Part shown: in pieces, positions 26,840-46,215 of the stretch | Position numbering within the stretch: the stretch's first letter is position 1 | Layout of the letters: each line of letters starts with the position of its first letter | DNA from: Owenia fusiformis | Lineage: Eukaryota; Annelida; Polychaeta; Sabellida; Oweniidae | Assembly: GCA_903813345.2 (NCBI GenBank) | Contig: CAIIXF020000003.1 | Location: forward strand, 15,020,931-15,084,930 | Reading direction: 5' to 3' | Length of the DNA: 64,000 nucleotides | Translations under genes and position numbers: made by a program | The notes under the pieces: generated by a model | Told to the model about the DNA's origin: nothing | Database searches by the model: none | The model's input: the letters and a program-made list of their open reading frames with translations, nothing else

Positions 26840-29143
26840 TTATGAGATGGTGCAATCGTCCCCATCATCTGAGTCTTCTGCTTGTTCTATGACTTTCATT
26901 TGTGTCACGTGTAACGCTTGCATCCCTGCGATACCACTGTCGAGTTTATGTCTTTGCCTGGCTCTGAAAACGTGAATACTTTTCATTCTTGTGTAATAAT
27001 GAGGAGTTGCCCCCGTGCCCCTGTTATACCGTTCAGCTACTTGTGGTATTGTCTTAAACGGGGGTTTACTCCAATTAGCAGAGCAAACTAGTGTGATATA
27101 AATGACCACCTCTGGACTAAGGTTCCGATACACCATTGGAAAGCTGAAAGAGCCAGCTTTAAGAATCTGACCTCCATTTGAATATATTAGATATTAACCC
27201 TTTCATCCCAAAGAGGTCATTTAATAATTTTATGAAAATCAATTTCAAAATGACAAATACCCCTATGGCCAGAATGGATTATTTTTGGGTTGACAATAAC
27301 TAATTTATTGTCAAATTATACATTGGAGAACATTTAAGAGTTTGAATAAAGATACTACTGAGGTAGGGGTCATTAAGTGCAGTGGCCCCATTATGCTACA
27401 CAACCCATCAGAACTTTTGTTTTCGGTCGAAATGAGATTTGATATTTGAAAATAGTGTGTAGTTCCAATACACCATTGGAAAGCTAAAAGGGTCTTTATG
27501 AATCTGACATCCAATTGAATTTTGAGCGAAGGCAAAATTAGATATTAACACTTTCATCTCCAAGGGATCATTTATTATTATATCATTTTATGGAAATCAA
27601 TTTCATAATGACAAGTAACCCCTATGACCAGAATGGATTATTTTTAGGTTTACAATAACTAATTGAATGTCAAATTATACTTTGGAGAATATTTAACCCT
27701 TTGAGTGCCATTGGGCCAATTCTGCCGAAAATGTATGTCACTAAATTGCCAAGATCGGCCCAAAATAACGCGTTTATATACACAGATCTAGATAGGGTGA
27801 GATAGGGGTCATTAAGTGTAGTGACCCCATAATGCTACAAAATGCGTCAGAATTTTTGTTTTTAGTAGAAAGGAGATTTGATATTTGGAAATAATATGTA
27901 CTTTAATGTGTAATTTGGGTATATAGGAATGTACAATACAAATTACTTATCTTCTCCTGAGAATATTAAGATTGCTGCAAGCGTGTTTTGACTTAGCATG
28001 AGAAAATGCATTTTTTGACTTACCATTGGGTATTTTCATATTCCTTAGACCTTATATTATATTTTTAAATATACCCTTATAAAATTACTTATCAATGATA
28101 TAATTGATTCCAAAGGAGTATTGCCTACCCGCAATCTAAACATTACAAGTGGTATGGGTGATGCACTACATATCAAGGTTAAGTGGAATCCATCAAGCCA
28201 TATATTTGACATTTGACCTCTCTTGTCACACCTATTTACTCGTACCACATCTTTTTATTTCACTTTATTGTAGCATTCCATCTGAAGCATGCATAATGTC
28301 TAATATGGAGTGACTCCAATGAATAGTTCCTCAGTCATAACAATCTATAGAGGCATTCTGAAACCATATATTTTCACATACAACCGCCCCCCCCCCCCAC
28401 CCTCATATAAACTAAGGAGAGAAGTAAAAGTCACAAACTGATCATGAAGAGTGGCACAAATATATCCTTTATGCAGTTAAAGTACTTTCTTCTGTTTTAT
28501 ATGAAAACTCAATGAAAAATGATGATGTAAAAAAAACTTGACATCGTTTTCATGGATATTTGGGTGGTAATTTCAAAAAGAAAATTTAATCCTACCCACA
28601 AAGTGTAAACATCGTAATTATATGCTGATGTGTTGCCGAGACCACAAACTTTGTTGTTATGGACATTTAGAATGAAAATAGAAACCGATTGTCAAAATAT
28701 ATTTTGATTGAAAAAGTGAGGTTAGATTCTTAAAGCTGTAACTTTTAGCTGTCCAACGGTATATTGAAACCTTAGTGCAGAAGAGGTAATTTAAAAATCA
28801 CAAAGGCGAGTACTTCGAGACTCTATTTTGTTCAAGTAATATTATACATATATCAATTGTTTCATACAGAAGGTCCACTCATATAGACACATTACCATCA
28901 GTAGGTCACGGTGGGATAGGAACACGACAACTACCTTTGTGAGGAATGGGATTGTGTTTTTTAATAATTCTAGAATGGATTGTTCATTGTTGAATTGAAA
29001 CGCATGATGTTTATATTAGATGCGGAAAAACGTAAACACGCTTATGTGGCTTTACTGGTTAAAACATGTTGAAATATAATGACCGTAAAACTGTGAGGAA
29101 ATAAAAACCTACCGGGCACCGGACATCACTTTGAGCATTTCCT
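26840..29143 (-). other. Gene A last two exons
   Basis: A 31-nt micro-exon (29113-29143, [10 protein letters not shown]) joins in phase to the terminal exon 26840-26963, which begins [18 protein letters not shown] and ends in an acidic tail and TAA. Gene B has the same pair, supporting both exons. The intron between them holds tandem repeats. Confidence 0.85.

Positions 29144-46215: not shown

Follow-up and report, generated by a model that had tools for sequence, protein, structure and literature searches.

Proteins that unite a kinase with a series of PF18346 repeats are known from plants, where the RING E3 ligase KEG also carries RING, ankyrin repeats and seven SH3_15 repeats (PMC11701565), and where a sunflower kinase has been described with RING, ankyrin and six SH3_15 repeats (PMC11646777); thus, the joining of a kinase to Mib repeats is not new as such. 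In the Mind bomb proteins the repeats follow a ZZ finger, and MIB1 is reported to bind JAG1 via two sites, the MZM part (Mib/Herc2-ZZ-Mib/Herc2) holding the N-box and the repeats (REP) the C-box, with MZM accounting for most of what Mib1 does in flies and REP for less of it (PMC11887331). For the ZZ finger of p62 it has been described that Asp129 and Asp149 hold the alpha-amino group, and that Asn132 reads the first side chain of the N-degron, the N132L form binding nearly 30 times more weakly (PMC6098011). As for the kinases, a 2009 study gives STK35 homologues in sea squirts and vertebrates, and reports no genuine one in flies, worms, sea urchin or lancelet (PMC2737284).

The locus presented here joins a kinase to ZZ fingers and Mib repeats, and it is repeated several times on the same contig.

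Gene A and its parts

The window, that is, the whole stretch of 64,000 nucleotides that was analysed (contig C3, 15020931-15084930), belongs to a genome of 498 Mb in 525 contigs, evidently that of an animal to judge from its intron-rich genes and the presence of Mind bomb-like and p62-like genes, and the genome matches to SH3_15, ZZ and kinase supplied the related stretches with which gene A was compared. These comprise five copies on contig C3, A to E, within about 158 kb, plus a fragment, F. Between 46.3 and 30.7 kb of the window, minus-strand ORFs match kinase, ZZ and PF18346, in that order, and the splice sites, chosen by phase and consensus and by comparison with the related copies, give a minus-strand model of 20 exons and 877 residues, which runs from an ATG at 46215 to a stop codon ending at 26840, without internal stops (0) and with GT-AG at 19/19 introns. 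This re-derived model agrees in every figure with the in-frame gene proposed by the initial annotation. From the N- to the C-terminus it encodes a kinase, a proline-rich linker, three ZZ fingers, three PF18346 Mib repeats and a short tail, distributed over the following exons:

46106..46215, minus strand: exon K1, start codon and glycine-rich loop GQGVFG, kept in A-E and in a kinase on contig C11
43432..43801, minus strand: exon K2, VAIK lysine and HRDLKPAN catalytic loop (Pkinase 2.6e-27)
43001..43217, minus strand: exon K3, DFG, APE and helix F (Pkinase 4.4e-14)
40170..40367, minus strand: exon K4, end of the kinase C-lobe, phase-1 donor (gene model)
39284..39343, minus strand: linker exon P1, 20 residues, phase 1-1 (counterpart in gene B)
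38886..38954, minus strand: linker exon P2, 23 residues, phase 1-1 (counterpart in gene B; a similar end, PPRKSPS, in C)
38548..38607, minus strand: linker exon P3, near-repeat of P1, phase 1-1 (gene model)
38069..38131, minus strand: linker exon P4, near-repeat of P2, phase 1-1 (gene model)
36506..36715, minus strand: exon Z1, ZZ finger 1, divergent (ZZ 2.3e-05)
36089..36292, minus strand: exon Z2, ZZ finger 2 (ZZ 5.8e-07)
35714..35866, minus strand: exon Z3, ZZ finger 3, closest solved relative the ZZ of p62 (ZZ 1.3e-11)
35523..35620, minus strand: exon L, linker with a 12-residue stretch kept in A-E
34276..34371, minus strand: exon R1a, Mib repeat 1, first half (SH3_15 7.2e-07)
34108..34181, minus strand: exon R1b, Mib repeat 1, second half (gene model)
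31679..31835, minus strand: exon R2a, Mib repeat 2, first half (alignment to MIB1 REP)
31365..31441, minus strand: exon R2b, Mib repeat 2, second half (gene model)
31119..31266, minus strand: exon R3a, Mib repeat 3, first half (SH3_15 8.4e-07)
30750..30864, minus strand: exon R3b, Mib repeat 3, second half (gene model)
29113..29143, minus strand: exon T1, short tail exon (counterpart in B-F)
26840..26963, minus strand: exon T2, tail with CaaX-type box CTIS, then stop (C[TI]IS in 6/6 C3 copies)

The linker exons are rich in proline, with motifs of the PPRK type; P1-P2 and P3-P4 (38069-39343, minus strand) look like a duplicated two-exon unit, which is present once in gene B. Elsewhere in the window, the minus-strand ORFs at 2500-11900 resemble what we take to be a xanthine dehydrogenase gene, and an Rfam search of the 64 kb gave no match.

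The domain search that the initial annotation had proposed for the 877-residue model found the kinase (Pfam Pkinase, 4.4e-51), ZZ in three stretches (1.2e-20) and SH3_15 in three stretches (1.7e-30), and it listed no RING, ankyrin or MIB_HERC2 match at E up to 1, which agrees with the claim that ankyrin and RING parts are missing. The stop codon lies in the conserved exon T2, which again speaks against an ankyrin part, and a coarse scan of the minus-strand ORFs of the window, run without a positive control, gave no RING pattern. An identity of the repeats with the PF06701 type of "Mib" domain was considered and is wrong, the repeats being PF18346 (SH3_15); a genome search with PF06701 gave eight matches, none of them on contig C3, and the two Mib/Herc2 domains around the ZZ are absent in A. 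Nor were other domains of p62 besides ZZ found in gene A by Pfam.

In A, B, D and E the kinase half retains its glycine loop, the VAIK lysine and the HRD, DFG and APE motifs, for which reason catalysis is likely and the kinases of these four copies are probably active. In a PDB sequence search with the kinase, the best solved relatives are ULK kinases (3.5e-29, considering the best 60 of 1930 matches), and STK35 does not appear among these best 60 of 1930. A putative resemblance of the kinase to STK35/PDIK1L (NKF4) was noted by the initial annotation and by us alike.

With respect to the Mib repeats, in A-E each is split by a phase 0 intron just past the conserved GHGGW region. Contig C1 of this genome contains two Mind bomb-like genes, labelled MIB1-like and MIB2-like, with PF06701, ZZ and PF18346 matches, and in their repeats an intron occurs at the same point and in phase 0, being readable on both sides in three of them and on the donor side in the fourth. 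R2 and R3 align to human MIB1 REP at 5e-19; this alignment and the common place and phase of the intron are, to judge by the sequences, marks of a descent shared between these repeats and those of Mind bomb. In a tree, they are strongly diverged from the Mind bomb-like repeats encoded elsewhere in the genome.

The ZZ fingers are less easily placed. The closest solved ZZ to ZZ3 is that of p62, with 58 bits vs 33 bits for that of MIB1, and ZZ3 of A is identical to the p62 finger at 28 of 41 positions. Asp129 and Asp149 of p62 are kept in ZZ3 of A, B and C (3/3), a retention that is not specific, as both residues also occur in the ZZ of MIB1. At the position of Asn132 there are Leu, Met and Leu, respectively, in these three copies, Asp147 of p62 is absent in B and C, and ZZ2 has neither Asp129 nor Asp149. 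A tree of about 45 residues favors neither a p62-like nor a MIB1-like origin of the fingers, and a scan of viral contigs with exon Z3 gave no confirmed relative.

The initial annotation had the gene stopping after the Mib repeats, and here it requires correction, as two further small exons add a tail ending in DCTIS. Repeat 3 is followed in A to F by a conserved donor and two more exons, a short one and then the last, which ends with CTIS in A and with CIIS in B, C, D, E and F, giving a CaaX box in all six copies on C3, and only 2 of the 2138 ORF ends in the window fit the same pattern. In gene A the residues that precede the box are acidic, and around it the tail is fast-evolving (dN/dS 0.35-1.24 in ten pairs of A-E). 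A CaaX box of the CxxS type is usually farnesylated. We regard this C-terminal box as a newly recognised feature of gene A and its copies, and as a likely membrane-anchor tag.

Tandem copies and other loci

The copies are arranged as follows, together with a locus on another contig that contains the same cassette:

53161..64000 and beyond the window end, minus strand: gene B, 18 exons for 844 aa; outside the window are K1 and the 5' portion of K2
62284-62340 and 61921-61989, minus strand: linker exons of gene B, one P1 and one P2
C3 14978642-14965743: copy C, with ZZ, without exon K2 (Lys and HRD)
C3 15005378-14993835: copy D, kinase-Mib without ZZ
C3 14947526-14931908: copy E, kinase-Mib without ZZ
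C3 14929576-14926212: fragment F, Mib repeats and CaaX tail only
C2 9946489-9968971, one strand: RIPK-like kinase exons, death-domain exon, ZZ1-ZZ2-ZZ3-Mib

The layout of gene B is the same as that of gene A, as had been adduced earlier against a prediction error. Its linker exons and those of A are backed by their mutual conservation; C, D and E each have one candidate linker exon, recognised by pattern only, and that of C ends in PPRKSPS like P2 of B. In gene B, a region at 60900-61660 of the window, within the intron that directly precedes Z1, shows repeating open frames whichever way it is read, a pattern that short tandem repeats produce.

A search of 2840 N-free bases of copy C gave no clear remnant of K2 (tblastn E 0.12 at best), and the lack of this exon leaves the phases of K1 and K3 unmatched, so that the kinase of C is broken or mis-assembled; despite this, the ZZ and Mib parts of C are under purifying selection. 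In D and E no ZZ exons were found. These two copies lie about 58 kb apart with a protein identity of 99% in the kinase part and 100% in the L-Mib part, which could reflect either a recent duplication or an assembly duplicate, and being near-identical they count as one with regard to the linker candidates. The first repeat exon of fragment F can be matched in two frames, which looks like a frameshift. The tandem duplication, together with the in-frame absence of ZZ in D and E or the absence of K2 in C, points to a fast-changing signalling family.

At the unlinked C2 locus the kinase, with query pieces joined by hand, finds one EGFR entry at the top of the PDB matches and then RIPK1, RIPK4 and RIPK3. 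It is 23-26% identical to the kinases of A, B, D and E over long alignments, and the kinase of the window would accordingly be placed in another family than this RIPK-like one. The death-domain exon scores 20.1 bits, under the Pfam cut-off of 22.6, and, given its phases 1-1 and its position between the exons of helix F and helix G of the kinase, it may be an alternative cassette. ZZ1, ZZ2 and ZZ3 group one to one with those of C3, with supports of 0.99, 0.80 and 0.72 over about 45 residues; the last Mib repeat, its two exons joined, reaches 31.3 bits vs a Pfam cut-off of 24, and the other Mib-like halves of the locus have no Pfam match. The same ZZ1-ZZ2-ZZ3-Mib cassette thus appears, unlinked, behind a RIPK-like kinase, an observation that we consider new, and the presence of this kinase and of a putative death-domain exon beside the cassette hints at stress or immune signalling.

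A further relative of the gene A kinase family, diverged and with the same exon phases where these are readable, lies at C11 20670029-20662447. Its last kinase exon has a phase-1 donor, and downstream on the same strand there are OTU-protease exons, one of 27.8 bits (over the cut-off of 23.3) and one of 16.0 (under it), that is, a possible kinase-deubiquitinase gene.

One gene or two, and what it might do

If the kinase and the ZZ-Mib part were two neighbouring genes, duplicated together and misread as one, the fusion would be only apparent. The whole block has been duplicated in tandem, so that A and B are not fully independent, and an in-frame ATG (TMPS), from which a ZZ-Mib protein could be started, occurs in P1 and P3 of A as well as in P1 of B. 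We consider this very improbable on account of several properties of the locus: (i) the exons common to A-E keep identical intron phases, and in A-E the kinase ends and L begins in phase 1, which also bounds every linker and ZZ exon on either side, so that the symmetric exons between the kinase and L could be inserted or dropped with the reading frame kept; (ii) in D and E, K4 is joined to L in this same phase 1 within 999 and 1100 bases; (iii) the gap between K4 and Z1 is filled in A by the proline-rich phase 1-1 linker exons, and in copy C it measures only 651 bases, with a linker candidate that lacks an ATG; (iv) ahead of the first ZZ cysteine, neither exon Z1 nor the open frame around it has an in-frame ATG in any of the three copies that contain it (0/3); (v) and finally, the unlinked C2 locus likewise has a kinase first and ZZ-ZZ-ZZ-Mib after it, the kinase ending and the ZZ part starting in phase 1.

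Selection is also similar in both halves. In the intact pairs dN/dS ranges over 0.11-0.18 both in the kinase (6 pairs) and in ZZ (3 pairs), and over 0-0.23 in linker L plus Mib (10 pairs), these rates, like the Pfam search on gene B and the PDB searches, coming from models without linker exons, and being rough where dS exceeds 0.9, as it does in several cases; the four values for the kinase of copy C, 0.33-0.43, are left out of these ranges because its model contains a filler. The common phases and the purifying selection on both halves make one gene far likelier than two, and on this point the initial annotation holds. For A, a pseudogene is ruled out by the open frame and by a dN/dS well under 1, and a prediction artefact by the five related copies, their common phases and the purifying selection.

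We would favor, tentatively, the reading of a single gene in which a kinase has been joined to a peptide-reading platform of linker, ZZ fingers and Mib repeats coming from a Mind bomb-type gene, tethered by its CaaX box and choosing its clients. The part outside the kinase would form the platform with the proline-rich linker, the three ZZ fingers and the three SH3-like Mib repeats; the cysteine of the CaaX box would be prenylated, with a farnesyl as CxxS suggests, and would anchor the kinase at a membrane; ZZ3 and the Mib repeats could bind the N-termini of clients or short peptides of cytoplasmic tails; and the kinase might then phosphorylate clients that would otherwise be marked by a Mind bomb-type E3 ligase or a p62-like receptor. 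The earlier proposal that Mind bomb-type substrate recognition aims the phosphorylation stands in part: it is sustained by the REP-like Mib repeats and their common descent, and it does not extend to MZM, which is absent, nor easily to ZZ3, which is nearer to that of p62. Such recognition would thus hold at most for the REP-like part, and with MZM missing the Notch ligands are not an obvious client. That the Mib and ZZ modules aim the phosphorylation is what the domain order suggests.

It could also be that the ZZ and Mib part controls the kinase, serving like a scaffold for its assembly, localisation or inhibition, with no choice of substrates. The ZZ fingers are wholly absent in D and E, yet the kinase is under purifying selection (dN/dS 0.17 for A-D), and in flies REP matters less than the other part of Mib1 that binds ligands (PMC11887331). 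However, the Mib repeats of MIB1 bind ligand tails (PMC11887331), and its SH3-like repeats are described as substrate-recognition domains (PMC11701565), and we see this kind of control as rather unlikely. A different role would be that of a RING-less competitor of Mind bomb, whose repeats would occupy the same tails, for example the C-box of Delta, blocking or modulating Mind bomb, with the kinase as something secondary. Fly Mib1 without MZM appears dominant-negative in a manner that depends on REP (PMC11887331), which speaks for such a competitor; but the kinases of A, B, D and E keep their catalytic motifs and remain under selection, and the Mib repeats have diverged, in the tree, far from those of the Mind bomb-like genes of the genome, and we regard this role as improbable.

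Returning to the platform that chooses clients, the presence of the same cassette behind two unrelated kinases in one genome would make ZZ-ZZ-ZZ-Mib a portable client-reading unit. The broader proposal, of a class of membrane-anchored animal kinases that choose their clients via p62-like ZZ and Mib readers of degrons or peptides, taken from ubiquitin ligases and autophagy receptors, and that would add phosphate where related proteins add ubiquitin, with this unit as the movable part, goes further and is in our opinion somewhat doubtful. If it were true, the half of a ubiquitin ligase that reads substrates could be transferred to kinases, in this animal genome apparently on two occasions, and nature would offer a test of whether an enzyme can be steered to its clients by Mib repeats and ZZ fingers alone. 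Copies D and E, with no ZZ, and copy C, with no catalytic exon, are natural deletion variants.

Comparison with known systems

Among the known systems, KEG is like gene A in that a single protein contains a kinase along with several PF18346 repeats, and differs in that gene A has three ZZ, three SH3_15 and a CaaX box in place of the RING, the ankyrin repeats and the longer series of SH3_15 (PMC11701565). The two have likely originated independently. MIB1 and MIB2 share with gene A the order of ZZ and then PF18346 repeats, as well as the place and phase of the repeat intron, but they have one ZZ and two repeats where gene A has three and three, and gene A, without Mib/Herc2, ankyrin and RING, has the kinase, the linker and the CaaX box. 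The ZZ of p62/SQSTM1 is the nearest solved relative of ZZ3, which keeps Asp129 and Asp149 and has exchanged Asn132 for Leu or Met. With the RIPK family the relation is through the C2 locus, where a RIPK-like kinase is paired with the ZZ1-3-Mib cassette, the kinase of the window being of another family. In the literature covered, namely the titles and abstract openings of the matches listed, with most subscription journals lying outside, no animal kinase-ZZ-Mib protein is named. As far as we have seen, then, what is new in gene A is the presence of three ZZ fingers and a CaaX box, and the absence of RING and ankyrin, on a kinase-Mib protein in an animal.
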